A stretch of 64,000 nt of DNA from an uncultured Candidatus Saccharibacteria bacterium (GCA_946404545.1 CAMJDZ010000004.1:1-64000), one strand, 5' to 3'. Numbered from the stretch's first letter, positions 5,823 to 56,997 are shown. Made by a program: numbers and translations. Notes: generated from the letters alone by a model not told the origin.

Positions 5823-5850
5823 AAATATCCCCCTTGGGGGATATTTTTTA
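5823..5850. terminator. Bidirectional terminator between LOG gene and dnaE
   Basis: A near-perfect hairpin AAATATCCCCC / GGGGGATATTT with T-runs on both sides serves the two convergent genes. The last bases overlap the dnaE stop region. Confidence 0.85.
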
Positions 5851-8800
5851 TTTCGCGATAATGTTTTCGTCGCCGAATACTTCTTTTAATCCGGCAAGGA
5901 CATCTTCCACTTCTACCCTGAATGGCATTCGCATGGCTTTTTTGTCTGGACCAATCACGAGAATTACTTCAGACAAACCAGGATACGTACCGCAAATCTT
6001 CTTCAAATCCATCAATGCTTTTGTATCGTCCGGATTCTCAATACGCACATAGAGTTTCTTCTGCTTTAACGGCTTCGCCTCAATCTCACTCTCCGAAGTC
6101 TTGAAATGGGTAGCCGGCTTCTCTGCACTCCTGCGGTAGCCACCGCCACCACCGACTTTCGTCGCCGCCACTTTGCCGCGCGGTTTCTGCGCCACACCCT
6201 TTGTTGGCGTCTTCAGCGTTGCGCCGGTCGATTCATAATTGTCCAACTCTTCGTCTGTAACAACCGAAATCTCTTCCGCATTAATCTTTGCCTCATCCGT
6301 CATAAAGCCGTCGCGATCGCGTGCGTTCACCTTACCAGCGATCTTCACGACCGTATCGACAAGTAGCTTGCCGCCAACCTCTTCGAAGGTCCTCGGGAAC
6401 ACCGTAACTTCAATCTCGCCAACCTTGTCCTCAATCTTCACGAAAGCCATCTTCGAACCGGACTTCGTAATGAGCGTGCGGACGTTTGTAATGAGACCAC
6501 CAACAATCACCGAAGCGCCATCGAGCGCCGGCTTAATCTCGTTCGTCGGCATCGTCTGTTCCTGGAAATAAGTATCATATTTATCGAGCGGGTGAGCAGA
6601 AATATAGAGACCCATCAAATCACGCTCCCACATCAGCTGCTCTTTTTCGGTATACTTCGTTGGCGCCGGCGTAATTTCTACTTCTGGCACCTCTGCGGCC
6701 GCGCCCATCGCGCCAAACAAGTCCGTCTGACCTGACGCCGCATCCTTCTGCATCTTGTTACCGTAAGCCTGAATCTTATCAAGGTTGAATAACAAATCTG
6801 AGCGGTCGCCAAAACTATCAAACACACCAGTCTTAATCGCCGATTCCCAAGATTTCTTGTTGAACTTAGTCGCGTTTACGCGCTTCGCAAAATCGCAAAT
6901 CGACTTAAACGGACCATTCTTATCACGCTCATCAATAACTTCCTCAGCGAGCGCCTTGCCCATACCCTTAATCGCAGCGAGACCAAAGCGAATCTTCTTC
7001 TCTTTACCGACTGTAGCGAAGTCTGCATAAGACTCGTTAATGTCTGGGCCAAGCACCGGAATACCCATGCGCTTGCACTCAGTCATCTCAATCGCGAGAC
7101 GATCCGTCCAACGCATATCCGCGGTCATAAGTGCCGCCATAAAGGCGTCAGGATAATAAGTCTTAAGATATGCCGTCCAGTAGGCAACCAGAGCGTAACA
7201 CGCAGCGTGGGACTTGTTAAAACAGTAGTTTGCGAAGTCGAGCAACTGGCTCCAGAAAGTCTCGGCAATCTCTTCCGTTGCCCCACCGACTTTCACCGCG
7301 CCTTCGATAAAGAGCGGTTTCATTTTGTTCATGAGGTCAACTTTCTTCTTACCCACGGCCTTACGCAAAGTATCTGCCTGACCGCCGGTAAAGCCACACC
7401 ATTCCTTAGATGCCTGCATGAACTGCTCCTGATAAATCAAAATACCATAGGTATTCTTGAGCGAGTTCTCGAGTCCTGGATGCAAATAAGTAATCGGCTC
7501 TTCCCCATGTTTACGCTTGATAAAGCTCTCAATGAACTGCATTGGGCCCGGACGATAAAGCGCGTTCATAGCGATGAGATCATCAAATGCCGTCGGCTGA
7601 AGCTCACGCAAATAACGCTTCATGCCCGCAGATTCAAACTGGAACACGCCAGTCGTATCGCCGCGACGGAACAACGCATACACGTTATCGTCATCAAGCG
7701 GAATCTTGTTCATATCAATCGTCTTGCCGTGCACCTTCTTGATAATGCGCAAGGTTTGCTGAATCACCGATAGGTTCGATAGACCCAAAAAGTCCATCTT
7801 GAGAAGACCCAATTCCTCAACCTGTGGACCAGGATATTGTGTTGCAAGCGGCCCCTTGGCCGAAACTTCCAGCGGCATGAACTTCACGAGGTCGTCCGGC
7901 GCAATCACCACGCCACAAGCGTGCACGCCGTGGCTACGAATCGTGCCCTCGAGCCTCATCGCGAGGTCAATCACCTCTTTTGCGGTTGGGTTCGTTTCAT
8001 ATTCTTTCTTCAAATCCGGCTCGTTAACAATCGCGTCTTTCAACTTCACATGATGGCCCATCACTGGATCCGGCACGAGCTTTGCGATTCTATCTGCCTC
8101 AGCGTAAGGCACATCAAGCACGCGCGCCACATCGCGCACGGCGTTCTTCGCCATCATCTTACCAAAGGTCACGATGTTACTCACGCGGCCCTTGCCATAC
8201 TTCTGTGTACAGTATTCAATCACCTCATCGCGACGGTTATCCTGGATATCGGTATCGATATCTGGCATCGAGATACGGTCTGGGTTCAAGAAGCGCTCAA
8301 AGAGAAGATCGTACTTCAACGGGTCCAAATCGGTAATATGAATTGCGTACGCAAGGAGCGAACCTGCCGCCGAACCACGGCCTGGACCATAAATAATACC
8401 TTGGTTTTTACCCCAGTTAATGAAGTCCTGCACAATCAAGAAGTAACCGTTGTAGCCCATGTTATCGACGGTCTTAAGCTCAAAGTCGATGCGCTCGAGA
8501 ATTTCCTTCGAAAGCACCTTACGAATCTCTGGAATCGTTGCCTTCTCTGCTTCTTCCTTCGTCATATAGCCATAACGCTCAGCAAGACCTCTAAAAACCA
8601 ATTTATCGAGATATTCCTTCTCTGTTTCTCCCGTATCAATTGGGAATTTCGGAATCAAAATACGGCCAAGATCAATCGTCACATTGCAACTCTCAGCAAT
8701 CTTCTTCGTGTTGAGAATCGCCTCTGGGCAAGTTTTCTGCCAACGCGGGATCAACTCATCTGGCGTAATCACGTGCAACTGGAAATCTTTAAGCGTCATG

Positions 8801-9549
8801 CGCTTTTCATCTTGAATGCGCGAACCCGTACCAATACATAGGAGCACCTCATGCGCATCCTGGTCTTCGTGCTTGATGTAGTGCGCATCGCAAGTTACCA
8901 CGAGTGGCAAATCGAACTCTTTCGAGAACTCCATCAACTGATTATTAATCTTGTTCTGCTCACTCCAATGCGTTGGCGAATCCGGATGGCCATGGTCCTG
9001 CATCTCAAGATAGAAGCGACCCTCAAAAGTCTTTGCATACCACTTAATCAATTCTCTAGCGCGATCCAAATCGTCGTTACGAATCGCCATTGAAATCTCA
9101 GAACCAGCACAACCCGAAAGACAAATAATACCTTCGTTATACTCTTCCATCACGCGGTGGTCGATACGCGGCTTGTAGTATTTACCGTCCGTCTCTGCAA
9201 TCGTCATCAAGCGACAAAGATTCTCAAAACCCTGATTCGTCTGCGCAAGCAAAGTAATGTGGAAGCGCTCCTTGTCGTAAGCCGGATCGCGATCCTCGAG
9301 TTTACGCGCCGCCACGTAGGCTTCAAGACCCAAAATTGGCTTTATGCCAGCGTCATTTGCCGTCTTGTATAGCTCAATCAAGCCCGACATCGTGCCGTGG
9401 TCCGTTACGGCCACCGCTTCCATGCCGGTTTCCTTCACGAGGTTAATCAGCTCATCAACCTTCGTCAAACCATCCAAAAGCGAATAGTGCGTGTGATTAT
9501 GCAAGTGCACAAAATCACTCGGTTTTAGCTGTATCTCCTCTTTTGCCAT
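5848..9549 (-). CDS. dnaE: DNA polymerase III alpha subunit
   Basis: This is the replicative C-family DNA polymerase, 1233 residues. The N-terminal PHP domain starts at about residue 13 (HLHNHTHYS, residues 15-23). The polymerase core has GPGRGSAAGS near residue 388 and the catalytic acid motif PDIDTDI (429-435). A C-terminal OB-fold (VGGLITNVRT onwards) and a short Gly-rich linker complete the DnaE1 layout. There is no exonuclease insertion, so this is not PolC. Upstream, TAAAAT lies only 6 nt from the ATG and there is no Shine-Dalgarno, so the mRNA is probably leaderless. It lies 31 nt downstream of the vWA surface-protein gene with no terminator seen between, so read-through from the pilus locus is possible. 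Confidence 0.97.
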   Translation of the reverse strand: MAKEEIQLKPSDFVHLHNHTHYSLLDGLTKVDELINLVKETGMEAVAVTDHGTMSGLIELYKTANDAGIKPILGLEAYVAARKLEDRDPAYDKERFHITLLAQTNQGFENLCRLMTIAETDGKYYKPRIDHRVMEEYNEGIICLSGCAGSEISMAIRNDDLDRARELIKWYAKTFEGRFYLEMQDHGHPDSPTHWSEQNKINNQLMEFSKEFDLPLVVTCDAHYIKHEDQDAHEVLLCIGTGSRIQDEKRMTLKDFQLHVITPDELIPRWQKTCPEAILNTKKIAESCNVTIDLGRILIPKFPIDTGETEKEYLDKLVFRGLAERYGYMTKEEAEKATIPEIRKVLSKEILERIDFELKTVDNMGYNGYFLIVQDFINWGKNQGIIYGPGRGSAAGSLLAYAIHITDLDPLKYDLLFERFLNPDRISMPDIDTDIQDNRRDEVIEYCTQKYGKGRVSNIVTFGKMMAKNAVRDVARVLDVPYAEADRIAKLVPDPVMGHHVKLKDAIVNEPDLKKEYETNPTAKEVIDLAMRLEGTIRSHGVHACGVVIAPDDLVKFMPLEVSAKGPLATQYPGPQVEELGLLKMDFLGLSNLSVIQQTLRIIKKVHGKTIDMNKIPLDDDNVYALFRRGDTTGVFQFESAGMKRYLRELQPTAFDDLIAMNALYRPGPMQFIESFIKRKHGEEPITYLHPGLENSLKNTYGILIYQEQFMQASKEWCGFTGGQADTLRKAVGKKKVDLMNKMKPLFIEGAVKVGGATEEIAETFWSQLLDFANYCFNKSHAACYALVAYWTAYLKTYYPDAFMAALMTADMRWTDRLAIEMTECKRMGIPVLGPDINESYADFATVGKEKKIRFGLAAIKGMGKALAEEVIDERDKNGPFKSICDFAKRVNATKFNKKSWESAIKTGVFDSFGDRSDLLFNLDKIQAYGNKMQKDAASGQTDLFGAMGAAAEVPEVEITPAPTKYTEKEQLMWERDLMGLYISAHPLDKYDTYFQEQTMPTNEIKPALDGASVIVGGLITNVRTLITKSGSKMAFVKIEDKVGEIEVTVFPRTFEEVGGKLLVDTVVKIAGKVNARDRDGFMTDEAKINAEEISVVTDEELDNYESTGATLKTPTKGVAQKPRGKVAATKVGGGGGYRRSAEKPATHFKTSESEIEAKPLKQKKLYVRIENPDDTKALMDLKKICGTYPGLSEVILVIGPDKKAMRMPFRVEVEDVLAGLKEVFGDENIIAK

Positions 9550-9580: not shown

Positions 9581-12500
9581 CTAGTTGCTTGGCGCAATTG
9601 TCGGACGAACTACGCTATCCGGAATACCATCAAACGTTTGCGAAACGCTTGGCGTCGTAGTCAATGTCGCATTCCAGTTCTCAAGCACTGCCAAGTCTTC
9701 GGTCGTCAACTTAGCATCGCTTCTAAACATACGATACATGTCACTTATTACTGTCGGTTGCCACGTGCCGAGTGCGTCAATGTCTTCCAAATTCGTAGCA
9801 TTATGGAACATCTCGCGCACATTCTTGGTATTATTCATCTTCCAGCCACCAATACCGTTTAGGCTCACCAAGGCAGTCGCCCCTCTGAACATTGCCTCAT
9901 AAGTTGCCACAGTAGTTCTTGACTCATTCCAGTACGGCCCATTCAAACCCGTCAAATCAGTAAGGCTCTTAGCATTCTCAAAGGCCTGATTGAAAGTCGT
10001 CACGCTTCGTACATCCCAATCCTCAAGACCATGCGTTGACGTTATTCCCGATTCATAGAACATACCTTGAAGATTAGTTGGCTTAATACATACACTATCG
10101 TCGGCCTTCTTTGCCCAACCGGACAACTGACTTATGCTGGTCAATTGCCTTGCGGTTCTGAACGTCTCTCTTAAGCCTGTCACCGAACATGGCTTCCAAT
10201 CCTGCAAACCGTCAATAGTAGATAACGACGTATATGCAAACGTACCGGTCAGGTCCGTCACCTTTCCAACATTCCATCCACGAATTGGCGTCAAATCAAG
10301 GACTCCCGATCTATAGAACATATTGGACATAACTAGGACGTTCTTCGTATCCCAGTTTTGTATTGGAGTTAAATCTCTGAGTGCGGTGGTGCCCGCAAAC
10401 AACGACTGCATAGTAGTAATTGCTCCGACATCAAGTTTTCTCAGCCCTTTAATATCCGACAAACTCGTACAGTCGCTAAAAATACTTGCCAATGATCTGA
10501 CTTTTGGTATATTCCAATCAAGCATTGCATCAACATTCTGAAGGCTTTCTTGCGAATGGAACATGCTTTCCATATACTCCACATTTGACAAGTCCCAAGC
10601 GTAATATGGCTCTTTGCCCTCTTCTTCGACGAGCTTATATTCTAGACCCGTCAAATCGGTAAACTTACCGTTTATATAGGCGCCGGCAAACATTTCCGTC
10701 ATCGTTTTGACCTTTGATGTGTCCCACTTCGACAAACCAGCAAGAGAGGTTAAACCATTTGCGCCACTGAACATCTGCGTCATCGAAGTTACATTCGAGG
10801 TGTCCCAGTTCGCAAGACCGTCCGTATTAATCAATGAGGTACCATAGAATACGCGATAAAAGTTTTCAGCAGACGACGTATCCCACTCCGACAGAACCGT
10901 CGAGTCAGAAAACTTAGTGCCGCAAAATAATGAATCAAATTGAGTTACATTCGAAACATCCCAAGTCTTATATGTCGTGCCGTCATCTCTCGTAATCGTT
11001 CTTCGCCTCAATGCCGAAAAATCAGCAAGCTTACCGTCACTATAGAACATGCCTGTCAGCCTAGTAACACTAGACGTATCCCATTTTTCGAGAGCACTAA
11101 TATCGACTAGATTATCCATTAGCTGGAAGGTGTTATAAAGCGTAGTCACATGAGACATATCCCAATCCTGGAGACCATCAAGTGATGTGACCTTCTTGCT
11201 CCAGGTCAGGAACTGAGCAAACGACTCAAGTTTAGTCACATTCCAGTTTCTAACTCCAGATATACTAACCAGGTTGGCCATTTTATAGAACATGCCCGTA
11301 GCGTCTTTGAGACTGTCAAATCTCCACCCAGCTAGACCGTCAACATTGACCATACCGGAGTTTTCGCTAAACAAGTTTCTCGCCGATTCAACATTCGAGA
11401 CATCCCAACCACCAATGGCCGAGAAATCCGCGATACCGCTGTGCGAGAAGGCACCGCCAATGTTCGTTACATTCGAGACATCCCAGTTCGCGAACGGTGC
11501 AAGATTGGCCGAACCAGAAGCATAAGCCATGAAAGCCTCCAGGGTCTGTACGCCCGACATATCCCAATCCGCTACGCCAGAATAATCAGTAATTGTCCTC
11601 AACCGTCTAGAATCTGAGCCCGAAAAGAGGCTAGTCGAATTCGAATTTCCCTTAATCGTATCAGCGTCAGAATAGATATATATCGATTGGTCGCTCGTAT
11701 TATACCAGGCGTAGATATTCACCGGCGACGATGCTGCAGAAATCTTATTATTAGCATTAACAATCCTATCTTCGAGCAATTCGTCGGCTTTTTTGATCGC
11801 CAAAACATTATCTGTAGCCAAAGTTCTCAACTTTCTGTTAACGTTGGAGCCGGTATCGAGCAACGCGTAGCTCTCCTGCCATGGCGTTCCTTCCGTCGAC
11901 TTCGTAATTGCCGGCCTACCCCACGTGCCTTCAATATAAATGTCTTCATTCCCCATAATAAAGTAATCTTTATTAAGGCGTTCTGCCGTTGCAGTTCTAA
12001 TCTGCCAACCCTTAAAGGTCCAGTCGCCACAAGAAATCTGGTCATTAGCCATCCTCACCGTACTGAATACTACTTCTTCTTTCGATTGTGGAAGTGCTCC
12101 CTCAATCGTACAACCAGACGGCGCATTTGCTTCATAGTGCACCCAATACTTTAGCTTCAGTATTGGAGAAAGCGTCGAAGTCGTGTCCTCGCTAATGACT
12201 CCTTCCCCGCTCTTAACGCTGCTAATGCCCCGTGTCTTCTTACTAGTCGGGAAAAGGCCATCCTCGTCGTTTAGGTATTCGTCCTTGAGTTTGAGCCCCA
12301 CCGATATTTTTCTCGGTGCAACACCATTGAAATAAGTGTGCGAAAGATCCCAAATCACCATTGGTGTGCCATCATCCGCCGAAGTCACCGTCCACAAGCC
12401 ATCACCTGAAATCTTACCGGTAAGCTCAAAGTACTTATCATTGACATAATCCGTGATAATCATCGGATTAAACGCTTCGTATATACCAGTCAAACGAATC

Positions 12501-13246
12501 ATCGTGTCCAAGAATGTCGCCTCATTGCTGCTCTCCAGCTTATCAGTAACATCCCTCATATAGTTGGCACCGCTGCCATATTGAATGCCATAGACAAATG
12601 AGTCCGGATAATTCTCTTTCAAGAACTTGTATTCCGCTATCTCTTCTGGATGGTGGTTGTTCGGAAAACCGTCCGAAACAAGCATCACGCACAAATCATT
12701 GCCTTCAACCGGATCGTAATTACTAAGTAATTGATTAACCCTTTGGTAGCCATAGTAATAATCCGTCATGCCGTCGGCGGATAGTCCTCTAATGGCACTC
12801 GTAATACTATCGCTATCATTCGTAAAGTCGGACAACAGACGGCTATATGTAGCAAAACCAACCAGAGCTACCCTACTCTGACCATCCGATAGAATTGCTT
12901 TAGCAAAATTAGCCATATCGTCCTTCGCCTCGTTGATATGATCGCCAAACATCGAACCGGATTCATCAATCAAAAGCACCAAGTCATAATGCTTATTAGA
13001 ACGAGTAGGCGGATTCGCGGTAAGCTCAATATTCATATTAGCGAGCCCCTTCTTCGTCCAATACGCCTCTTTCTCGATATGCCAAGCGCCCGCATCGCCA
13101 TCTTCGTAGTTAGCTGTAGCGGAACCAAAACCAACATAACGCACCGGCCCATCTGCAGCAAATGCGACGAAAATCGGCAAGACAATCGCGGCACTCAGAA
13201 CGAGAATTCCGGCCAAGATTCCAAGGATTTTTCTCCTATTTTTCAT
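9581..13246 (-). CDS. Secreted vWA-domain protein with many BspA-type (DUF285) repeats; candidate pilus tip adhesin
   Basis: This 1221-residue exported protein begins at the ATG at 13246, chosen because AGGAGG lies 6 nt before it; the longer reading starts within the upstream gene. Residues 1-31 form a signal peptide (KNRR, then a long hydrophobic core ending AFA). A von Willebrand A domain follows with a MIDAS DESGSM, then VSDGFPNN. The C-terminal two-thirds is a long array of repeats of about 25-40 residues around WDVSNVT or WDTSxVT with MF or LF positions, the BspA/DUF285 type. No sorting motif or C-terminal membrane segment is present. vWA proteins cap sortase pili in streptococci, and this one closes a sortase locus, so a tip adhesin is likely by context. 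It overlaps the preceding gene by 11 nt. Confidence 0.82.
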   Translation of the reverse strand: MKNRRKILGILAGILVLSAAIVLPIFVAFAADGPVRYVGFGSATANYEDGDAGAWHIEKEAYWTKKGLANMNIELTANPPTRSNKHYDLVLLIDESGSMFGDHINEAKDDMANFAKAILSDGQSRVALVGFATYSRLLSDFTNDSDSITSAIRGLSADGMTDYYYGYQRVNQLLSNYDPVEGNDLCVMLVSDGFPNNHHPEEIAEYKFLKENYPDSFVYGIQYGSGANYMRDVTDKLESSNEATFLDTMIRLTGIYEAFNPMIITDYVNDKYFELTGKISGDGLWTVTSADDGTPMVIWDLSHTYFNGVAPRKISVGLKLKDEYLNDEDGLFPTSKKTRGISSVKSGEGVISEDTTSTLSPILKLKYWVHYEANAPSGCTIEGALPQSKEEVVFSTVRMANDQISCGDWTFKGWQIRTATAERLNKDYFIMGNEDIYIEGTWGRPAITKSTEGTPWQESYALLDTGSNVNRKLRTLATDNVLAIKKADELLEDRIVNANNKISAASSPVNIYAWYNTSDQSIYIYSDADTIKGNSNSTSLFSGSDSRRLRTITDYSGVADWDMSGVQTLEAFMAYASGSANLAPFANWDVSNVTNIGGAFSHSGIADFSAIGGWDVSNVESARNLFSENSGMVNVDGLAGWRFDSLKDATGMFYKMANLVSISGVRNWNVTKLESFAQFLTWSKKVTSLDGLQDWDMSHVTTLYNTFQLMDNLVDISALEKWDTSSVTRLTGMFYSDGKLADFSALRRRTITRDDGTTYKTWDVSNVTQFDSLFCGTKFSDSTVLSEWDTSSAENFYRVFYGTSLINTDGLANWDTSNVTSMTQMFSGANGLTSLAGLSKWDTSKVKTMTEMFAGAYINGKFTDLTGLEYKLVEEEGKEPYYAWDLSNVEYMESMFHSQESLQNVDAMLDWNIPKVRSLASIFSDCTSLSDIKGLRKLDVGAITTMQSLFAGTTALRDLTPIQNWDTKNVLVMSNMFYRSGVLDLTPIRGWNVGKVTDLTGTFAYTSLSTIDGLQDWKPCSVTGLRETFRTARQLTSISQLSGWAKKADDSVCIKPTNLQGMFYESGITSTHGLEDWDVRSVTTFNQAFENAKSLTDLTGLNGPYWNESRTTVATYEAMFRGATALVSLNGIGGWKMNNTKNVREMFHNATNLEDIDALGTWQPTVISDMYRMFRSDAKLTTEDLAVLENWNATLTTTPSVSQTFDGIPDSVVRPTIAPSN

Positions 13247-15170
13247 TGCCCACCTCCTTTCTGTGTGCTTTGACAATTGCAACAGCAGCCCCCAAGCCCA
13301 ATCCGCATCCTAAGAATATAGCGAGATAGCAAACAATATCATCGTATGTTTTTGGAGTTTCTGGTGTTTTCGGCGTCGGTTTTGGTTTTGGCACCGGCGT
13401 ATCGCCAGAATCAGGTGTCGGATCTGGCGCATCCTCGCTTTTTACTCCAGTGTCAAATTCCGTCACTGTACGATATGCCGCCTTCGCTGTCGCGCTACTA
13501 TTCATCACGTGATTATCTGCCGTCGCGCTCAATAGCTCGACCGGGTTTTCTATCGTCGTTTCATAATCCTCATGGACGTCATAACTTGCATTGAGAACGC
13601 GCGATTCACCAGGCGCTATATTATCGATTTGTGCCAAGTGCGCAGAGCGCAGGCTAGCACCCTCGCCCGGTTCTTCGAACGTCGTGCCCTTTTGATCAAC
13701 GAACACATTCACATTTTTTAGCGTATAGCTTGCCGTATTCTTCACAGTAATCTTGAAGTTTACTTCGTCATCGGCATAGTATTTGTTCTGCGGATTTGTA
13801 ATTACCTGCGTAATTACAGGCTGAAACACGCCTTGGCCTAATGACATCCACTTACCCTGAACCGTCACATTTTCTTCTGGCATTTCGAAGCCATCTTCGC
13901 TCATCCAGCCCATAAACATATATTCATCCGCACTCGGTTCAGCTGCTAGCTGAACCTTATCACCAGGATAATATGTCTGGGAAGCCGGCACTAAGCTTTG
14001 CCAATTACTCGGCATGACTTCGCCGGTAAATTCATAGTTTACCCTGTAACTAACCTTTTCAAAACTACCATGAATCGTGACGTCTGCTTCCGGCATCGTA
14101 AAGCCGCCGTTCTCGACAACCATGCGATCAAAAGTCCACCCCATGAAACGATAGCCTCTGAACTCCCAACCAGCCTGGGTCGTATCAAGCTCAACAAATT
14201 CGCCAGGCGCATAGCTACGTTCAGCTGGCGGCAAATAGCCCTCCGGCGCCTCAGTTTCAATCTGATACTTCACATTGTATTTAACCGCCTCGGTAAACGA
14301 ACCAACCAAAGTCACATCGCCTTCCGGCATCGTGAACTTCCCATTCTCAATTGTCGCGTCTGAAGTGGTCCAGCCAGAGAAGGTATAACCACGAACAACC
14401 GGATTCATCGCTACGCTTACGGTTGAACCTCCAATATACTGTTGCTCAGCAGGAAGTTTTGCGTTTGCTGGCGCCGTACCAGTAAAGCTATAGCGCACAG
14501 TGTATTTCGTAGATTCATCGTCCTTACCAATCCAGTGATGCGTCAAGTTCGAGTCGACAGTCGCAAGATTGTCCATCTCTGTTGCATAATTGTAAAAGTC
14601 GCGGCGCTTCTCACCTTCGCGCAATCTTGGCGTCTTCGTACGAATGCCAACCGTAACTTCGCAGCCCGCCATCACGTTTTTAACGCGAAGCGAAACTGTT
14701 TCGCTAGCTTTATCATAATGCAGACCGTGCCAGACATACTCTGTTCCACCGGCATTCCAGCCAGTTGTATCGCCAGTATCATCGATTACAAGACCAGCAC
14801 AGCCGCCCATTCCAGAAACAGGATGTGCGGCAATAATACCATTATCAGTTTCAACAAAACCTTGGAACGTTAGACCATCCGGAATTCTATCAGTCACCGT
14901 CATCACGCCACTGCGAACTTCTACGCGCGTGTTATCGCTAGAATGTGTGCCGGTGCGATCGATGCCGTCATACTTGATATGCAAATAATAGTCTAAATCG
15001 GAATTTTCATTTACACGAATGCCGTTTGCAATCTGCTCAGCCTGACTGACTCTATATACAATAATTGCACTCACGATGCCGATGCTGCCAAGCATCAAAA
15101 TACCAACAAACACAAAAATCCGGAATCGATTCGCTGCTAGCTTAATCCCCCGCCCACGAGAAATAATCAT
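13236..15170 (-). CDS. Surface protein with three InlB/SHIRT-like repeats and C-terminal anchor
   Basis: This wall or membrane-anchored surface protein has 644 residues from the ATG at 15170. That start is preferred over the GTG at 15209 because the paralog at 17691-19544 begins at the same point (MIISRGRG versus MILFSRERG). It has an N-terminal hydrophobic segment, a DUF11-like domain (DRIPDGL), then three repeats of roughly 70 residues with GYTFSGW and FTMPEG signatures, and a further beta domain. A Pro/Thr-rich spacer precedes TPKTYDD, a hydrophobic segment and the basic tail KAHRK. This is a sorting-signal layout without a canonical LPXTG. A strong promoter and a leader shared with the paralog precede it. 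It probably displays a stalk on the surface. Confidence 0.8.
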   Translation of the reverse strand: MIISRGRGIKLAANRFRIFVFVGILMLGSIGIVSAIIVYRVSQAEQIANGIRVNENSDLDYYLHIKYDGIDRTGTHSSDNTRVEVRSGVMTVTDRIPDGLTFQGFVETDNGIIAAHPVSGMGGCAGLVIDDTGDTTGWNAGGTEYVWHGLHYDKASETVSLRVKNVMAGCEVTVGIRTKTPRLREGEKRRDFYNYATEMDNLATVDSNLTHHWIGKDDESTKYTVRYSFTGTAPANAKLPAEQQYIGGSTVSVAMNPVVRGYTFSGWTTSDATIENGKFTMPEGDVTLVGSFTEAVKYNVKYQIETEAPEGYLPPAERSYAPGEFVELDTTQAGWEFRGYRFMGWTFDRMVVENGGFTMPEADVTIHGSFEKVSYRVNYEFTGEVMPSNWQSLVPASQTYYPGDKVQLAAEPSADEYMFMGWMSEDGFEMPEENVTVQGKWMSLGQGVFQPVITQVITNPQNKYYADDEVNFKITVKNTASYTLKNVNVFVDQKGTTFEEPGEGASLRSAHLAQIDNIAPGESRVLNASYDVHEDYETTIENPVELLSATADNHVMNSSATAKAAYRTVTEFDTGVKSEDAPDPTPDSGDTPVPKPKPTPKTPETPKTYDDIVCYLAIFLGCGLGLGAAVAIVKAHRKEVGNEK

Positions 15171-15220
15171 TAAAAATCCCAAACTTCGCAGTTTTTGTTT
15201 TAATAACACCTCTCACACTT
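15171..15220 (-). promoter_or_regulatory. Conserved 5' leader shared with the paralogous surface gene
   Basis: Reading the minus strand, the predicted transcript begins close to GTAAGTGTGAGAG and continues through an A-rich stretch to ACTGCGAA before the ATG. The same 13-mer and 8-mer occur in the same order in the leader of the gene at 17691-19544. Confidence 0.6.
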
Positions 15221-15226
15221 ACTTTT

Positions 15227-15255
15227 ATTCTAATACCATTTAACGCTTATGTCAA
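15227..15255 (-). promoter_or_regulatory. Promoter of second surface-protein gene
   Basis: A consensus TTGACA (15255-15250) is separated by exactly 17 nt from TAGAAT (15232-15227) on the minus strand. It would drive the surface protein, the vWA protein and possibly dnaE. Confidence 0.8.
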
Positions 15256-15257
15256 AG

Positions 15258-16013
15258 TTATTTCGTCAGTTTTACGAGCAAAACGTCTCGCTTGTGACGC
15301 GAATCTTTATCGCAGGTAGACAAAAGCACTAACTTCGCGCCAGACGCCTTATTTTCCGCATCTGCGCTCAGATACATTGCGCTCTTCTTGAAGGTATTCC
15401 AAGCCGCCGATGCGTTCCCCTTGTAGGTGTTGATATTATAAATATCCGTCTCGCCAAGATTGAGCACCGCAAAACCTAGCACTTCCATCTTGTATTTGCC
15501 CTGCTCCGTGTAAAGCGTGCCGCTCATATGGTGATCAAAGTATGCCTTATCCGCAAAACGCGTAATATCCGAGAACATAATGCTATCTTTCATCCTGTGG
15601 CCGTATATGACCGTAAATGAATCTGTTATTTTATTGTTTCTATAGTCAACGAAAGGCGTCCCAGCCGTCGCAAAGTCCCCTTTATAGTCGCGCGCGAGAT
15701 ATTTCTCGTTATTCTTTGCCTGCACTACTGGATAATCAATCGCCGTACCGTCCAATTTCAGCCATCCGACAATCTCCGAATTCAGCTTCTTTAGTTCGTC
15801 GAGCGAAAAATCGTCACTTTCAGATGTGATACCAGCCTTCGTTGCTACCTCTATAATCTTGTCGTCCAACTTACCACTATCGTTCACATTCTGCGCATCA
15901 TAAAAAGCATATATACCGACAAAAAGTAGCCACAAAAACAGCGCCATCGTTGAAAGTTCGATGAATTTTTCCAAAAAGCCACGTACGGCCGAACCAATTT
16001 TTATGTTTTTCAT
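15258..16013 (-). CDS. Class B sortase
   Basis: This is a membrane-anchored cysteine transpeptidase that cleaves sorting motifs and links pilins to each other or to peptidoglycan. The 251-residue protein has one N-terminal transmembrane helix (about residues 21-38) followed by an extracytoplasmic catalytic domain. The triad is visible as His139 in VIYGHRM, Cys234 in LSTC, and Arg242 eight residues after it. The N-terminal helical extension and overall pattern fit class B rather than class A or C, and class B sortases build the T3-type pili of Streptococcus pyogenes. It sits 13 nt after the signal peptidase-like gene and downstream of the pilin with the SPKTG motif, its probable substrate. Confidence 0.92.
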   Translation of the reverse strand: MKNIKIGSAVRGFLEKFIELSTMALFLWLLFVGIYAFYDAQNVNDSGKLDDKIIEVATKAGITSESDDFSLDELKKLNSEIVGWLKLDGTAIDYPVVQAKNNEKYLARDYKGDFATAGTPFVDYRNNKITDSFTVIYGHRMKDSIMFSDITRFADKAYFDHHMSGTLYTEQGKYKMEVLGFAVLNLGETDIYNINTYKGNASAAWNTFKKSAMYLSADAENKASGAKLVLLSTCDKDSRHKRDVLLVKLTK

Positions 16014-16026
16014 TGATATATCAGTT

Positions 16027-16557
16027 TTAAATGTTGCGAACCTTGAGGGTGCTTATCGCCTTACCCTTCAAGTCCTTCTCTTCAATTGCGCCAAATTTGC
16101 GCGAGTCGTCATCGCAGTCATAGTTATCGTTGAGCAAGAAGTAGCGCCCAGACGGCACGCGATACGGAAAGCTACTCTTCACCTGCAAATATGCCTCTTC
16201 GTCGCTAACATCGACAATTGCACGTTCGCTCTCGATCACGCCATTAACCATTAAATAGCCGTCCTCATTCAGGTCGACTACCTGGTCTGGCAAAGCCAAG
16301 ATGCGAGAGAATTCCGTCTTTCCGTCCTTTTCGAACAAAACGACGTCTTCGTTAGTATAGCTATTCCAAAGTCTCGAGAAAAGCACGAGCTCTCCATCCT
16401 TTAGGTTCGGGTTCATCGCGACGCCCACATTGCGCCCAACGCCAAACACGACAAAGAACAGAATAAATATAGCAAAAAGCAGGAATGCAAACTTTCCAAG
16501 CAGCTTCAGCCACGGCTGGAACTTCTCTGGTATTTGCACTCCTGCTAACTTTTTCAT
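16027..16557 (-). CDS. Signal peptidase I-like pseudoenzyme (SipA/LepA-type pilus factor)
   Basis: This 176-residue protein has the fold and conserved boxes of type I signal peptidase, with one transmembrane segment (about 22-40), box B-like GVAMNPNLKDGE and box E-like DSRKFGAI (residues 152-158). Both catalytic residues are missing: the serine expected before Met is Ala47 (codon GCG), and the lysine expected before RILALP is Ser84. In S. pyogenes pilus islands an equally inactive SipA/LepA is needed for pilus assembly, and the gene order here is similar. It therefore probably acts as a pilin chaperone or scaffold for the class B sortase rather than as a protease (inference from the family and locus). 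It lies 23 nt after the pilin stop. Confidence 0.85.
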   Translation of the reverse strand: MKKLAGVQIPEKFQPWLKLLGKFAFLLFAIFILFFVVFGVGRNVGVAMNPNLKDGELVLFSRLWNSYTNEDVVLFEKDGKTEFSRILALPDQVVDLNEDGYLMVNGVIESERAIVDVSDEEAYLQVKSSFPYRVPSGRYFLLNDNYDCDDDSRKFGAIEEKDLKGKAISTLKVRNI

Positions 16558-16580
16558 TTTTGTTTTGCTACTAATTCGAT

Positions 16581-17651
16581 TTAAGCGTTTTTCTTCGCTT
16601 TGCTAGAGACATAGATTGCACCAGCGCCAGCGAGAGCGGCGAGGATGATGAATGGGAAGACGCTGACGAGGACACCAGTCTTTGGCGAGATATTCTTCTC
16701 GATACTGATTGGGGTCTTGTTTGCAGCGTTAAAATTGCTATCGGTCAAAGCAACTGTCGTCTTGGTTGGCGTGCTAAGCGAAGATTGCTGAACACCGTTG
16801 AAGACTGGGTTTTCGTAATCGTCTTTGCTAGTCAAAGCGATCGTATAATCAAGGCCGATTGGCATTTCATCAACTGCACCATTCAAACCGACAGTAATCG
16901 TATCGCCATGCTTCAAGTAGAAGTAATTAGTGCCACCAACCGTTGCTGTAGCAGTGTTACCAGTACAGGTCGAAGATGTCGAAACCGTATAAGTATCGCC
17001 AGCGAGCGCGAGCGAGCCCATTGCTGGGATGCTCAACTGATACTTAAAACACTTATTAACATCAGCGCTATTACCCTTCACTTCCTGGCTTGCCTCGATG
17101 TGTGTGCGGCTAGAACCGGTCGTAATTTCTGCATTCTGCTTTGCGTCACTACTATTCAGGACCTGCGCTGCAACCGTCGCAACTAGATCGCCAGTTGGGA
17201 CATTGTTGCCATCAACAGCGTAACGAACAGAAACAATCGCCTTATAAGTAGCATCAGTCTTAGGATAGGTACCAGCATTCGAAGAGCTAGACTCAGCAAT
17301 CGTGTAATAATAATCACCAACCTGCGTATAGTTCGTGGAGCTGAAATCCAAGGTCGAAGTTGCCGTCGCGACGTTGCTCACTGGAGCGACGCTGCTAAAA
17401 GTAATCGTGCTCGTAGATGGAAAGCCAGTCGCTGCAGCTGGGTTATCAGAATCGGCCGTAATCGTATAGCTATAAACATTGGAGACTGGATTTGAAACGC
17501 CAGAAACCTTGCGAGTAATCTGGAGCTTACCGGAATCGTCAACGTTCCCGCCGTTATAAGTTGTCGCTGCACTAGCGCTACCGCCAGCAAAAGCTGCGAC
17601 CGCCGCTACGGAGAGGATGCTCGCAACTGTAATTTTCTTAATATTTTTCAT
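16581..17651 (-). CDS. Major pilin-like protein with SPKTG sorting signal
   Basis: This 356-residue exported protein begins with a signal peptide (cleavage likely after SASA near residue 28). Two beta-rich domains follow, of the type that carry spontaneous Lys-Asn isopeptide bonds in streptococcal pilins of the Spy0128/FctA group. The KLQITRKVSG strand and the YYYTIAESS strand fit the Lys-bearing and Glu-bearing strands of that domain. The C-terminus is a sorting signal: SPKTG (residues 322-326), a hydrophobic stretch and the basic tail SSKAKK. A single Cys pair lies in the second domain. GAAAGG precedes the ATG. With the sortase and SipA-like genes directly downstream, it is the likely polymerised shaft subunit. 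The pilin role is inferred from domains and context. Confidence 0.82.
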   Translation of the reverse strand: MKNIKKITVASILSVAAVAAFAGGSASAATTYNGGNVDDSGKLQITRKVSGVSNPVSNVYSYTITADSDNPAAATGFPSTSTITFSSVAPVSNVATATSTLDFSSTNYTQVGDYYYTIAESSSSNAGTYPKTDATYKAIVSVRYAVDGNNVPTGDLVATVAAQVLNSSDAKQNAEITTGSSRTHIEASQEVKGNSADVNKCFKYQLSIPAMGSLALAGDTYTVSTSSTCTGNTATATVGGTNYFYLKHGDTITVGLNGAVDEMPIGLDYTIALTSKDDYENPVFNGVQQSSLSTPTKTTVALTDSNFNAANKTPISIEKNISPKTGVLVSVFPFIILAALAGAGAIYVSSKAKKNA

Positions 17652-17690
17652 TTTGACCTTTCTTTTGCCCTTTTCTGTTTACTTTTTAAA

Positions 17691-19544
17691 TTATTTCTTC
17701 GCTTTACGTCGTAGCACCACTATCGCCCCTCCTATTGCCCCGAGTGCTATTAATGCTACGAATGGAATCAGATATCCTTGGTTGACGCCCAGTAGCGGCG
17801 GATCCTGCTCGAACCTTGCCGAGCGGAACGTCACCGTTGAACTGTATGTATCAGTATTGTCTGTATCAAGTCTGTAATTGTTCTCAGCAATCGCGCTAAT
17901 CAACTCAGCCGTGTTCTGGTAATCGACATCTTCGTTACTTGGAATTGTGAACTCAGCCCAGAGAGTTGCCGTCTCGCCGGCGCCGATTTCGTTAATCTGC
18001 GCCAAAGTGTCACTACGAATCACGAAGGAACGTGTTGCGGTAAAATGTGCACCCTCGAGATCTTTGAGCTGGACGTTCACCATGCTAATCGGATAATCAG
18101 CCGTGTTCTTCACCGTAATCGTGAACTTCACCGTCTCAGTATTATAATAAGGATCTTTGCAGTCATCGATTGTTTGCGTGAGAATTGGCGCAAATACACC
18201 CGCGTTAACGCTCCACTCACCGTAAATCGTTATGTCTTCATCCGGCATTACGAAGCTTGCCGACTTGTACCAACCGGAGAATTTGTAGCCTTCCGCCGTC
18301 GGATTAGCTGCCGTCGTAACCGTCGCGCCAACTGCATATTCTTCCTGACCAGGAATCAAACTTGGTGCATTCGGCGGCAAGACATCACCCTCAAAGGCAT
18401 AGGTCACCGTGTGCTTAATCTGCTCGAAGCTACCATGGAAAACCACGGCACTTGCTGGCATTGCGAAATTGCCCTCGCTAGAAACCGTTGCGTCAGTTGT
18501 TGTCCAGCCGGAAAATCTGTAGCCATCAATTACGGCGTTCGCAGCCAAGGAATCAACCTCGACCATATCGTTTTCACCGTATTCCTTTGCGTTCGGTGCA
18601 TGATATGCCGCTGGCACTGCTTCGCCGTCAATCACGTAAGATACCTGATATTTTGGCTTTGCCGTGAAGCTACCCACGATATGCACTTCGCTTGCTGGCA
18701 TCGTAAACTGATCATTCGTAATAGTCACATCGCTTGAAGTCCAACCGGAGAAAGTATAGCCGTCAAGACGAGCATCCGTCGCGACGTAGACTTCCATATC
18801 TTCTGGATAAGCCATGTTCTCTGGCAAGCCAGGCGCATTGGCCGGGACATCACCAGTATATTCGTAAATCACATTGTAGACCGCAATATCGCGACCAATC
18901 CAAGTGTGAACCGTATTCGAAGAATTACTGAGTGGGCCTTCGGAAACACCAGCCATATTATAGAAGTCCATGCGCTTTACGCCTTCCGGCAAAGTCGGCG
19001 TGCGCGTCACGATACCAACCGTCAATTCGCAGCCACCCTTCAAGTTCTTGACCTGGAAGTTGACCGTGTTCGATGCCTTATCAAAGTGAAGACCATGGTA
19101 AACAAACTCGGTGTTACCAGCATTCCAGCCAGTCGTATCGCCAGTATCGTCAATCACCTTACCGGCGCACGGCGTCACGCCATCTTTGCGCTCTACTGCG
19201 CCGAAGCTGCCAGACTCCGATTCGACGAAGCTCTGGAAAATCAAACCATTCGGAATCCTATCCGAAACCGAAATCGCGTCGCTACGTACTTCAGAGGTCG
19301 TATTATCATTAGACTCGACACCCTGACGATCGACGCCATCATATTTAACTTTCAAATAATAAGTGAGCTCGGAATCTTCTTGTACGCGAATACCGTTTTC
19401 AATCGTATCCGCATTGCCGCGAACCAAACCAGTAATTGCCATAATTGCCGCAAAACCGCCGACAACGACAGCAAGACCGAGCACACCAATGCCGGCCTTT
19501 CTAATCAAACCCTTAAATCCGCGCTCGCGCGAAAACAAAATCAT
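17691..19544 (-). CDS. Surface protein with three InlB/SHIRT-like repeats; first gene of pilus locus
   Basis: This 617-residue surface protein is paralogous along its whole length to the protein at 13236-15170. It has a membrane or signal segment near residues 17-40 and a DUF11-like domain with SVSDRIPNGL. The matching segment DDTGDTTGWNAG is identical in the paralog. Three repeats of about 70 residues follow with GYTFSGWT and FTMPAS signatures, then a second beta domain and a C-terminal anchor: PPLLGVNQG, a hydrophobic helix and RRKAKK. The proline-glycine anchor lacks the Thr of LPXTG, so it may be held by the helix alone or recognised by a variant sortase specificity. It leads the pilin-sipA-sortase unit from a strong promoter and may be a minor or basal pilin. 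Confidence 0.8.
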   Translation of the reverse strand: MILFSRERGFKGLIRKAGIGVLGLAVVVGGFAAIMAITGLVRGNADTIENGIRVQEDSELTYYLKVKYDGVDRQGVESNDNTTSEVRSDAISVSDRIPNGLIFQSFVESESGSFGAVERKDGVTPCAGKVIDDTGDTTGWNAGNTEFVYHGLHFDKASNTVNFQVKNLKGGCELTVGIVTRTPTLPEGVKRMDFYNMAGVSEGPLSNSSNTVHTWIGRDIAVYNVIYEYTGDVPANAPGLPENMAYPEDMEVYVATDARLDGYTFSGWTSSDVTITNDQFTMPASEVHIVGSFTAKPKYQVSYVIDGEAVPAAYHAPNAKEYGENDMVEVDSLAANAVIDGYRFSGWTTTDATVSSEGNFAMPASAVVFHGSFEQIKHTVTYAFEGDVLPPNAPSLIPGQEEYAVGATVTTAANPTAEGYKFSGWYKSASFVMPDEDITIYGEWSVNAGVFAPILTQTIDDCKDPYYNTETVKFTITVKNTADYPISMVNVQLKDLEGAHFTATRSFVIRSDTLAQINEIGAGETATLWAEFTIPSNEDVDYQNTAELISAIAENNYRLDTDNTDTYSSTVTFRSARFEQDPPLLGVNQGYLIPFVALIALGAIGGAIVVLRRKAKK

Positions 19545-19610
19545 TCCAAATTTTCCTCTTGATATTTGTGTTTTCGCAGTTGTTTTTGTTAGTCTCTCAC
19601 ACTTACCTTT
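19545..19610 (-). promoter_or_regulatory. 5' leader with the conserved GTAAGTGTGAGAG element
   Basis: The leader of the first surface gene carries GTAAGTGTGAGAG followed by AACAAAAACAACTGCGAA, closely matching the leader at 15171-15220. AGAGGA near the ATG is the likely ribosome site. Confidence 0.6.
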
Positions 19611-19639
19611 AGCATAATGAAAAATCTCAAAATAGTCAA
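19611..19639 (-). promoter_or_regulatory. Promoter of the pilus locus
   Basis: TTGACT (19639-19634), a 17-nt spacer and TATGCT (19616-19611) on the minus strand. It lies next to the divergent thyA promoter. Confidence 0.75.
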
Positions 19640-19650
19640 CGCGTTTATGC

Positions 19651-19739: not shown

Positions 19740-20588
19740 ATGAGTAAAGCAGATAAGCTATTCGTCTCAATGTGTCGTGACATTTTGGACAATGGTACCG
19801 ATACCCAAGGCGAAAAGGTCCGCCCACACTGGCCAGACGGCAAACCAGCATACACGATTAAGAAATTCGGCGTGGTGAACCGTTATAATTTGCAGGAAGA
19901 ATTCCCTGCAATGACCTTGCGCAAGACGGCTATCAAAACTGCAATCAAAGAGATCTTGTGGATTTGGCAGCAAAAGTCAAACAATATCCACGATCTCGAC
20001 GCACACATTTGGGACGAGTGGGCCGACCCAGATGGTAGCATTGGTAAGGCCTATGGTTATCAGCTTGGTGTCAAGCATCAGTATAAAGAAGGCGAATTCG
20101 ACCAGGTCGACCGCTTGCTTTATGATCTGAAGCATTCACCATTCAGCCGCCGCATGCTTACAAATATTTATAATCATGCCGACTTGCATGAGATGAACTT
20201 GTACCCATGCGCATTCCAAACTATCTGGAATGTCACTCAGAAAAAAGGTGACGACAAGCTTACCCTGAACATGGTTCTCGTTCAGCGCTCGCAGGATGTC
20301 CTCGCGGCCAACAACTGGAACGTCGTTCAGTACGCTGCTCTACTCATGATGGTCGCTCAAGTCAGCGACATGAAAGCCGGCGAATTAATGCACGTCATCG
20401 CCGACGCCCACATCTACGACCGCCATGTCCCGCTCGTCGAGGAACTCATTTCTCGCAAGCAGTTCAAGGCACCAAAGGTAACGCTCGACCCTACGGTCAA
20501 AGATTTCTACAAGTTCACCGCCGATAGCTTCAAGGTTGAAGATTATCAGACTGGCGAGCAAATCAAAGACATCCCAATCGCAATCTAA
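19740..20588 (+). CDS. thyA: Thymidylate synthase
   Basis: This enzyme methylates dUMP to dTMP using methylene-tetrahydrofolate. The 282-residue product shows the catalytic cysteine in LYPCAFQ (Cys157), the QRSQDVLAANNWN dUMP-binding segment and HVIADAHIYDRH near the end. The residue after the catalytic Cys is Ala rather than the usual His (PCA instead of PCH), a variant I recall from the Bacillus ThyA/phage phi3T branch; that placement is from memory. AAAGGAGG sits directly before the ATG. dfrA follows after 13 nt, so the enzyme that makes dihydrofolate and the one that recycles it are co-expressed. A hairpin in the 5' leader could modulate expression. Confidence 0.95.
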   Translation: MSKADKLFVSMCRDILDNGTDTQGEKVRPHWPDGKPAYTIKKFGVVNRYNLQEEFPAMTLRKTAIKTAIKEILWIWQQKSNNIHDLDAHIWDEWADPDGSIGKAYGYQLGVKHQYKEGEFDQVDRLLYDLKHSPFSRRMLTNIYNHADLHEMNLYPCAFQTIWNVTQKKGDDKLTLNMVLVQRSQDVLAANNWNVVQYAALLMMVAQVSDMKAGELMHVIADAHIYDRHVPLVEELISRKQFKAPKVTLDPTVKDFYKFTADSFKVEDYQTGEQIKDIPIAI

Positions 20589-52983: not shown

Positions 52984-53379
52984 ATGAAAAACATTCTCAA
53001 AAAAGCTGGGCAAATCATTACTGGTGCTGCCGCAGCTGCTACATTATTTGCTGGCCGCGTAATGGCCACCACAACTGCGAACCCTGCACAGGCCGGCGCT
53101 GAAGCTGCCCGTGGCAACGGTATGCCTTCTGAGCTAGTTGGCGCAGACGGCGTCTTCACCAAGATTACCAACACCGTTCTTTATGCCGTCGGTATCATCT
53201 CCGTCGTCATGCTTATCTTCGGTGGTCTCCGCTATGTTATCTCTGGCGGCGACAGCAAAAAGGTTACCGATGCAAAGAACACCATCATGTATGCTCTTAT
53301 CGGTCTCATCATCTCGATTCTCGCTTTCGCAATCGTCAACTTCGTGATCAACGCAGTCGGCGGCGAAGCTAGCGTCTAA
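52984..53379 (+). CDS. VirB2/TrbC-like pilin
   Basis: This 131-residue prepilin has an N-terminal signal segment (ILKKAGQIITGAAAAATLFAG) and a polar part. Two hydrophobic helices sit around the family motif GGLRYVISGGDSKKV, with NTIMYALIGLI in the second helix. This is the arrangement of VirB2/TrbC T4SS pilins, in which both helices pack in the filament. A promoter reaching into palindrome B precedes it, and AAAGGA lies about 13 nt before the ATG. The transcript ends in a hairpin (53404-53434) located inside the convergent comF gene. It is the first of seven such proteins within about 5 kb. Confidence 0.83.
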   Translation: MKNILKKAGQIITGAAAAATLFAGRVMATTTANPAQAGAEAARGNGMPSELVGADGVFTKITNTVLYAVGIISVVMLIFGGLRYVISGGDSKKVTDAKNTIMYALIGLIISILAFAIVNFVINAVGGEASV

Positions 53380-55087: not shown

Positions 55088-55600
55088 TTACTTAGCGAGA
55101 GCGCCAAGGACGAAGTTGACGATAGCAAAGGCGAGAATTGCAATCACGAGACCGATGATACCGTAGAGAATCGTGTCTTTACCTTTCTTAACCTTGCCTG
55201 GGTCACCCTGGGAAGTAGCATAGCTGATACCACCGAGGATAATCATCACGACTGCAACCATACCAATGATGAAGATAACAGTGTTGATGATAGTGTTAAC
55301 AACATTGTTCAAATCGCTGCTCTGGCAGGAATCTGGGTCAGAAGCAATCGTACCGGCCTGAGCACAGTCAGCGCTAGACTTACCGTAAATCGTACCCCAG
55401 TTGTTGCCATCTTTGTAGCGCGTACACTTAACTGGATAGCCGTTTGGTGCGGTACCAGCAGTAGTGAAGGTCAAGTTAGAATACTTCTTGTTTGCGCCAA
55501 CACAGTCATTGATGCTTGCGGCAAACACAGAGCCGGTAACTACGACAGCCAAGAATGCTGCAATCGCGCCGCCTTTGATGATTTTGCTAATTTTGTTCAT
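55088..55600 (-). CDS. VirB2-like pilin with signal peptide and Cys-bearing ectodomain
   Basis: This 170-residue protein has a signal peptide (GGAIAAFLAVVVTGSVFA), then an exported domain of about 75 residues with four Cys that could form disulfides, then the pilin module (GGISYATSQGDPGKVKKGKD and TILYGIIGLVI). AAAGGAG precedes the ATG. The extra exported domain distinguishes it from the shorter neighbours and suggests a surface-exposed or minor pilin. Confidence 0.82.
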   Translation of the reverse strand: MNKISKIIKGGAIAAFLAVVVTGSVFAASINDCVGANKKYSNLTFTTAGTAPNGYPVKCTRYKDGNNWGTIYGKSSADCAQAGTIASDPDSCQSSDLNNVVNTIINTVIFIIGMVAVVMIILGGISYATSQGDPGKVKKGKDTILYGIIGLVIAILAFAIVNFVLGALAK

Positions 55601-55960: not shown

Positions 55961-56322
55961 TATTTCATTGCTCCTAAGATAAAGTTAACGATAGCGAATG
56001 CTAACAGAGAAATAATCAAACCAATCACGGCATAGAGAATCGTGCTCTTTGCGCGTGTCACCTTTCCAGGATCACCCTGGGAAGTTACATAAAAGACGCC
56101 GCCAATCACAATCACGATTGCCGCCACGATACCGGTAATTCCAAACACTGCGTTGAGAACCGTACCGATTTTATTCTGCGCATCATCTTCAGTATGGCTG
56201 CCACAAATAATATCCTTATCTGGACCATTGTAGGTATTGCACATATCATCAGCATAGGCCGGCACCGCCATAAAACCTAATACTGCAATGACGCTAGCTA
56301 TTACTAATGCAATTTTCTTCAT
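55960..56322 (-). CDS. VirB2-like pilin with signal peptide
   Basis: This 120-residue protein has a signal peptide (MKKIALVIASVIAVLGFMAV, cleavage near AYA), a short Cys-containing linker (two Cys), and the pilin module GGVFYVTSQGDPGKVTRAKS with TILYAVIGLIISLLAF. It starts on the last base of the preceding stop codon and ends on the first base of the next gene, so three pilins are translationally coupled. Confidence 0.83.
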   Translation of the reverse strand: MKKIALVIASVIAVLGFMAVPAYADDMCNTYNGPDKDIICGSHTEDDAQNKIGTVLNAVFGITGIVAAIVIVIGGVFYVTSQGDPGKVTRAKSTILYAVIGLIISLLAFAIVNFILGAMK

Positions 56323-56996
56323 TATCCGATTGCTCCTACTACCGTATTAACGATTACTGCGGCCAAAATCACAATGATAAGACCGATTGACGAATACAAA
56401 ATCGTATCGCGTGCAGTTTTTGCGGCAGATGGATTGCCGACGCTTGTAACATACTGAATGCCACCCCACACAATCATAATCACCGCGATAATACCGCCCC
56501 AAACAAAGGCCGTATTAAAGATTTCCTTAATAAAGTCGCCGCCTTTAGACTTACTAATCACGTCTGCAATCGCGCCACTGATGAGGGAAGCGACCATCAC
56601 GAGCGCCATACCAATCACCGCATTCGTAACCGTCTTTTTGCCCTTAGCGAGTTTGCCTGGATCGCCACGTGCCAACATATACTGGTAGCCACCCCAAATC
56701 ACCATCGCAATTGCGAGGTAGCCAATCACGCCGAGTATCATACTGACGACGTTCATTACAACTGTCCAAATAAAACGACGCAAACTCGAGCCGTCCGAAT
56801 CACGTACTGGCGTGTTAATTCTACAGGTGCCGTCAGGCTTCGTGCTGACCAAGCCGTCATACCAAGCCCTGATACCCAAGAAGTGCGTTTGACAGTCTGC
56901 TTTCGGCTCTGCGGCAACATTTTTAGCCGGTAAAACTACAATCCCTGCAGCCGCAATTGCCAACACTGCGCAGATACTAATAATAAATTTTCTCAT
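56322..56996 (-). CDS. Double VirB2-like pilin (two modules in one chain)
   Basis: This 224-residue protein contains two pilin modules in tandem after a signal peptide (FIISICAVLAIAAAGIVVLP). The first has GGYQYMLARGDPGKLAKGKK and TVTNAVIGMALVM; the second has GGIQYVTSVGNPSAAKTARD and TILYSSIGLIIVIL. Together they give four transmembrane helices. The start at 56996 is preferred, 1 nt after the stop of the preceding gene, with AAGGAT before it. A covalent dimer could act as a starter, cap or base of the filament; this is inference. Confidence 0.78.
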   Translation of the reverse strand: MRKFIISICAVLAIAAAGIVVLPAKNVAAEPKADCQTHFLGIRAWYDGLVSTKPDGTCRINTPVRDSDGSSLRRFIWTVVMNVVSMILGVIGYLAIAMVIWGGYQYMLARGDPGKLAKGKKTVTNAVIGMALVMVASLISGAIADVISKSKGGDFIKEIFNTAFVWGGIIAVIMIVWGGIQYVTSVGNPSAAKTARDTILYSSIGLIIVILAAVIVNTVVGAIG

Positions 56997-56997
56997 G

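Follow-up and report, generated by a model that had tools for sequence, protein, structure and literature searches.

The six-gene cassette and its setting

The stretch of DNA analyzed here (the window; 64,000 nucleotides, GCA_946404545.1 CAMJDZ010000004.1:1-64000, with positions counted from its first letter) belongs to an uncultured Saccharibacteria bacterium whose genome (G000 in locus labels) comprises 801 kb in 21 contigs and encodes four sortases. It contains a cassette of six open reading frames, all on the minus strand from 19544 to 9581, that are separated by gaps of 14 to 49 bases or overlap slightly. In the 5' to 3' direction, the cassette encodes a repeat-bearing surface protein (Acc1), a pilin, a SipA-like protein, a class B sortase (SrtB), a second repeat protein (Acc2), and a vWA protein. 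A preliminary description, made from the sequence alone, had placed these six genes on one strand and read them as a covalent class-B-sortase pilus locus in a probable bacterium of the candidate phyla radiation (CPR). The gene set holds up, as all six reading frames are intact and their domain content lies far above chance by Pfam and TIGRFAM E-values and cut-offs. We consider it likely that these genes specify a surface pilus whose subunits are covalently polymerized, of the type built from FctA, SipA, and a class B sortase. The features of the cassette, followed by its flanking genes, are listed below.

17691..19544, minus strand: Acc1, surface protein with Listeria-Bacteroides/InlB-B repeats and DUF11, a C-terminal transmembrane tail, and a degenerate sorting-like PPLLGV; candidate accessory subunit
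16581..17651, minus strand: FctA/Spy0128-type major pilin, two-domain, 356 amino acids, with signal peptide and SPKTG tail
17139..17141, minus strand: codon for pilin Lys171, which corresponds to the polymerizing Lys161 of Spy0128; in each protein the Lys stands 7 residues ahead of the Asn168 column
17049..17051, minus strand: pilin domain 2 Cys201, candidate disulfide partner of Cys229
16965..16967, minus strand: pilin domain 2 Cys229
16674..16688, minus strand: pilin sorting signal SPKTG (residues 322-326, with Thr325)
16027..16557, minus strand: SipA-like pseudo-signal peptidase, with Ala47 and Ser84 in place of the catalytic Ser and Lys
15258..16013, minus strand: class B pilus sortase, His139-Cys234-Arg242, with an N-terminal transmembrane segment
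13236..15209, minus strand: Acc2, paralogous to Acc1, proline rich in its tail and carrying a sorting-like TPKTYD; candidate basal subunit
9581..13246, minus strand: vWA protein (DxSxS present) with PARCEL/DUF285 repeats, predicted to be secreted, without a sorting signal
5848..9549, minus strand: dnaE, conserved gene bordering the cassette slot (Pfam; 93-97% identity in relatives)
19740..20588, plus strand: thyA, conserved divergent flank (Pfam; 73-89% identity in the two relatives that have thyA there)

The vWA gene has its probable ATG start at 13246. According to Pfam, the nearest neighbors of the cassette are dnaE, thyA, DHFR, FtsJ, and DAGK. A scan for promoters and terminators gave no excess over shuffled sequences (16 sites versus 17.6, and 10 versus 10.3). 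The pilin family proteins of type IV secretion systems (PF18895) that the preliminary description set apart from the pilus are indeed encoded outside this locus, at 52984-53379 (plus strand), 55088-55600 (minus strand), and 56322-57062 (minus strand).

Pilin, SipA-like protein, and sortase

The pilin carries a PF24547 (DUF7601) domain (E 2.7e-10) and a PF12892 FctA domain (E 3.8e-6; 28.1 bits versus the Pfam cut-off of 22.1). A phmmer search of the PDB with the single window pilin returned no match, but a profile built from 24 of its relatives matches Spy0128 at 1.2e-18 and the T18.1 pilin at 4.7e-35. The AlphaFold2 model (predicted local distance difference test score, 86) aligns with Spy0128 (3b2m) over 257 residues at 2.7 A, with a Z score of 19.6; other streptococcal T antigens come next, and PitB is a further match at Z 13-14. 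The SPKTG sorting signal named in the preliminary description is present, and a T-G precedes the C-terminal helix in 73/82 pilins; in most of these tails, position -2 relative to the Thr is V or P, and the residue that follows the Gly is V or I. Lys171, placed by alignment, stands 7 residues ahead of the Asn168 column, as does Lys161 in Spy0128. Across the family, a Lys occurs 7 residues before this column in 30 of 83 pilins and 8 before it in 28, compared with 0 to 18 at other positions; 75 of the 83 have a Lys somewhere 4 to 12 residues before it. With an FctA domain, the Spy0128 fold, a sorting signal, and a Lys161 equivalent, the protein belongs to the FctA/Spy0128 family.

The preliminary description had also called this an isopeptide-type pilin. 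As regards the fold family this stands, since the model is not devoid of isopeptide-type Ig-like domains in the plain sense but matches Spy0128; the bond chemistry, however, does not. The intramolecular bonds of Spy0128 are Lys36-Asn168 (with Glu117) and Lys179-Asn303 (with Glu258), in agreement with how the E117A and N168A mutants are titled in the PDB. At these positions the window pilin has Arg47/Glu120/Thr178 in domain 1, where the Glu is retained, and Gln189/Leu273/Ile317 in domain 2. Having the Lys, Glu, and Asn/Asp set in neither domain, it falls outside the isopeptide-bonded pilins, and on these residues we conclude that its shaft domains are not stabilized by Lys-Asn isopeptide bonds. 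No pilin among 82 pairs a Lys with an Asn or Asp in domain 1 (the Glu is retained in 77), whereas the domain 2 triad is intact in 23/82.

A pair of cysteines occurs in domain 2 of 22 pilins, including that of the window, where Cys201 and Cys229 probably form a disulfide. All but two of these 22 pilins fall in one clade (Shimodaira-Hasegawa-like approximate likelihood ratio test, 96), within which the Lys-Glu-Asn triad is retained only in L102_6284. For this clade, it is a reasonable inference that a disulfide replaces the isopeptide bond. A repeated, independent swap of isopeptide for disulfide was considered (Fisher p 0.0045) and rejected, as the Cys pair amounts to one clade plus one paralogue pair; because the tree places it in essentially a single clade, the association with isopeptide loss reflects lineage history rather than independent covariation. 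The window genome encodes three DsbA-like Thioredoxin_4 proteins with CxxC. Enrichment of both MdbA-like oxidoreductases and sortases in CPR bacteria was reported in 2019, with the MdbA-like proteins discussed in connection with type IV pilins (PMC6744442).

The SipA-like protein belongs to the S26 family (PF10502, E 4.1e-17), and its top PDB match is S. pyogenes SipA (4n31, 1e-16), with LepA also among the best. Ala47 and Ser84 occupy the catalytic Ser and Lys positions. The dyad Lys is absent from every aligned relative that is long enough, while the Ser position varies. Lacking the Ser-Lys dyad and lying beside pilin and sortase genes, the protein is of the SipA type. A role as an active peptidase was ruled out on the loss of the dyad; a separate LepB with intact Ser and Lys is encoded elsewhere (G000:C1:14498-15055). 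S. pyogenes SipA likewise lacks the dyad, is not a peptidase, and is required for pilus polymerization (PMC4049620). Across the genus, the protein forms a length series from about 160-200 residues through 94-110 (about 100 in L053, L056, and L194) and 72-84 (about 72 in L055, L175, L176, and L201) to loci with no detectable gene, where the pilin abuts the sortase (L185, L202, L211-L214, and L218). The small forms are matches of the full-length profile to short open reading frames, some of which are possibly misdelimited. The genus offers naturally occurring deletions, graded in length, of a factor that is needed in Streptococcus.

The sortase scores 164.6 bits against TIGR03064 (curated cut-off, 153.75), and its H139, C234 (within LSTC), and R242 are invariant among ten pilus sortases. 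A tree built from 94 class B sortases places it together with 31 pilus sortases of Saccharibacteria and another five encoded in metagenome-assembled genomes (MAGs) of low-GC (25-31%) Bacillota or Mycoplasmatota (support, 99/91). The sister group consists of Spy0129, 4y4q, and Bacillota pilus sortases (whole set, 99/87). The heme-type SrtB of Bacillus and a second Saccharibacteria SrtB (one clade, 100/92) fall elsewhere. We therefore rejected a housekeeping function: the window sortase groups with Spy0129, away from the heme-type enzymes, as the preliminary reading of a pilus sortase would have it. One other sortase of the window genome is also of class B; it is conserved throughout the genus and in several of the family's other genera.

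Anchoring of single proteins is common among class B sortases; that of Clostridioides difficile uses SPKTG-type signals and anchors single proteins, and that system is not known to include an FctA pilin or SipA. The window sortase might similarly attach individual FctA-like proteins to the wall without polymerizing them, the pilin-like protein then being a short wall-bound adhesin, and the missing shaft-toughening isopeptide bonds would fit such a role. We regard this as unlikely, because the polymerizing Lys position is retained across a family with a mean column identity of only about 33%, a homologue of the streptococcal polymerization factor SipA lies beside most of the pilins, and the sortase clusters with pilus sortases.

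Candidate accessory proteins and the vWA protein

The two repeat proteins (PF18998, E 7e-17 and 2e-15) are paralogues with 43% identity, and the preliminary description had proposed both as anchored accessory subunits. For Acc1 this is doubtful as far as covalent addition is concerned, because its tail reads PPLLGV where syntenic homologues have PPFTGI and PVFTGV, so that the sorting Thr is Leu in the window. Its structure model is poor (predicted local distance difference test score, 69), and its fold matches are uninterpretable. Acc2 has a signal of another kind: its C terminus has a proline-rich stretch, then TPKTYD, then a helix. Two similar surface proteins elsewhere in the genome (L239 at G000:C1:15237 and L240 at G000:C1:78721, one of them near lepB) likewise have, at the C terminus, a proline-rich stretch followed by TPKTND and a membrane helix. 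The corresponding DNA pattern gave 3 matches, versus 0 in a reversed control. These tails point to another sorting signal, one probably read by a sortase other than that of the pilus. We take it that such a sortase anchors Acc2, which is the leading candidate for the pilus base.

The vWA protein (vWA, E 1e-12; DUF285, E 1.1e-79) has a signal peptide, an intact DxSxS, and PARCEL repeats. Its gene belongs to the cassette not only here but also in L235 and L236, two of the three syntenic relatives, and is adjacent in several other pilus loci. These observations, together with a weak match (4e-5) to Mfa5, a fimbrial subunit in the PDB, could make it a covalent tip adhesin like the vWA proteins of other sortase pili, as the preliminary description proposed. 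This possibility concerns one part only and is compatible with the pilus interpretation, but we think it quite improbable, given that neither the window protein nor its relatives have a C-terminal sorting signal and that the three vWA-PARCEL paralogues that the genome encodes at other loci also lack one. The protein is syntenic, and its place in the pilus is putative. Six more PARCEL/DUF285 proteins are encoded in the genome (G000:C1, at about 23.4-26.8, 39.5-41.5, and 55.2-56.8 kb; C2, at about 87-89, 117.5-119, and 120.4 kb), of which three have an N-terminal vWA domain and none a sorting signal. They represent a family of secreted repeat proteins in a small genome.

Several points weigh against the proposed pilus. 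A few relatives of the window pilin lack a clear sorting signal. The Leu in the Acc1 tail and the missing signal of the vWA protein make the tip and accessory roles uncertain. Furthermore, VKOR, which would recycle the DsbA-like proteins, has no match in the window genome, so that the disulfide is tentative.

Distribution, probable exchange, and predicted function

Pilins matching the window profile occur in 42 of the 45 genomes of the genus (21/23 among high-quality ones), often in several copies, and many of these genomes are of ruminant gut origin. In a sample of the class, they were found in 21/23 members of the genus and in 2 of 370 other genomes, both from genus g2. A same-strand sortase gene follows in 70 of the 76 cases with 3 kb of downstream sequence, and SipA as well in 53, counts that include some near-duplicates. 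Some pilin or sortase copies carry a single in-frame TGA or TAA (L025, L030, and several pilins); such additional copies could be in decay or turned off.

At the dnaE/thyA slot, L235 has the same six genes and L236 has five, while L237 has a reduced set and lacks thyA there. The flanks are mostly 70-97% identical to those of the window (dnaE, 93-97%; thyA, 73-89%; FtsJ and DAGK, beyond folA, 67-87%; folA itself, 92.5% in L235 and 48% in L236), whereas the cassette is about 50% identical between genomes. In L235 and L236, identity to the window is 44-47% for the pilin, 50-53% for the sortase, 49-53% for SipA, 47-53% for Acc1, and 27-53% for the vWA protein, with Acc2 an exception at 78.5% in L235. 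Because sortase and SipA have diverged to the same degree as the pilin, this pattern points to exchange of whole or partial cassettes at the slot rather than antigenic drift alone. The FCT (fibronectin-binding, collagen-binding, T-antigen) region of S. pyogenes has been called a recombination hotspot (PMC7900414).

One could view the cassette as a decaying, functionless remnant of a horizontal acquisition, given the lost isopeptide residues, the stepwise shrinkage and eventual absence of SipA, and the stop codons in the pilin or sortase of some relatives. However, six intact frames with invariant catalytic residues, present in nearly every member of a small-genome genus and often in multiple copies, render this very improbable.

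The sortase tree suggests exchange of the pilus sortase between low-GC Bacillota-like gut bacteria and Saccharibacteria. Transfer into Saccharibacteria is the more probable direction, because Bacillota form the sister group. The gene order pilin-SipA-second pilin-sortase (L091, L096, L210, L226, and L227) is found both on contigs of low-GC Bacillota MAGs and on higher-GC Saccharibacteria contigs and is possibly a trace of such transfer. A Clostridia-assigned MAG contains an 80% identical sortase fragment on a 4.6-kb contig with a GC content of 46% (L082); this contig is probably misbinned Saccharibacteria.

In comparison with known systems, the locus most resembles the FCT-2, FCT-3, and FCT-4 islands of S. 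pyogenes, with which it shares the major pilin fold, a dead SipA, the class B sortase clade (SrtC), an LPXTG-like tail with T-G, and the position of the linking Lys. It differs in the absence of Lys-Asn isopeptide residues, in the Cys pair of domain 2, in the vWA-PARCEL and InlB-repeat proteins, and in its setting between dnaE and thyA in a member of the Patescibacteria. The gene order in FCT-3 is cpa-sipA-fctA-srtC, whereas here SipA sits between pilin and sortase. No thioester domain, as in Cpa, was found among the Pfam matches of the six cassette proteins, and no Nra/MsmR-type regulator among the six genes or their immediate neighbors. The FCT-3-like architecture seen in the preliminary description was therefore rejected in the strict sense, on gene order and on the missing thioester adhesin. 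A variable cassette between conserved flanks is common to both (PMC7900414). The PI-2 pilus of S. pneumoniae and S. oralis also has a shaft pilin with an FctA domain (PitB), although its structural match is lower than that of Spy0128. Type IV pili (T4P-1 and T4P-2), by which Saccharibacteria hold their hosts, are the known attachment filaments of the group (PMC12206443); they too are surface filaments but are built by unrelated machinery, noncovalent, ATPase driven, and independent of sortases. In open-access full text covering Saccharibacteria, Patescibacteria, and CPR bacteria, we found no report of a sortase-assembled pilus in Saccharibacteria (subscription papers and preprints were outside the scope). 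We conclude that a machine of a known kind occurs here in a phylum new to it, where the cross-link residues, the set of genes, and the helper have changed.

For the pilus that we propose, the pilin would be exported by Sec, with the separate signal peptidase with an intact dyad available, and its C-terminal helix would keep it in the membrane. The catalytically dead SipA may help to bring pilin and sortase together. Cys234 of the sortase would then cut between Thr and Gly of SPKTG and link Thr325 to Lys171 of the next pilin, extending the shaft. The likeliest base is Acc2, whose tail is proline rich and whose kind of signal recurs in two other wall-type proteins; a further cellular sortase would anchor it. 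Acc1 could be an accessory subunit or a membrane-bound partner, and the co-encoded, predicted secreted vWA-PARCEL protein would associate at most noncovalently. Such a pilus would probably serve for attachment in the gut, the most plausible partner being a bacterial host, and strains would exchange cassettes; Saccharibacteria are thought to live on other bacteria.

More tentatively, and somewhat short of an even chance in our estimation, this gut genus may have taken the pilus from low-GC gut bacteria as its defining attachment organelle. Isopeptide bonds would then have been dropped (with a disulfide gained in one clade), SipA worn away, and cassettes swapped at a fixed slot, so that host recognition would differ by strain and would not depend on type IV pili. 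Attachment of Saccharibacteria to their hosts has so far been explained mainly by type IV pili, and a second, covalent pilus that is nearly confined to one genus would be a candidate for what determines host choice by individual strains in the gut. Its pilins illustrate how a shaft may manage without isopeptide bonds, and the graded loss of SipA offers a natural series for probing the role of this poorly understood factor.

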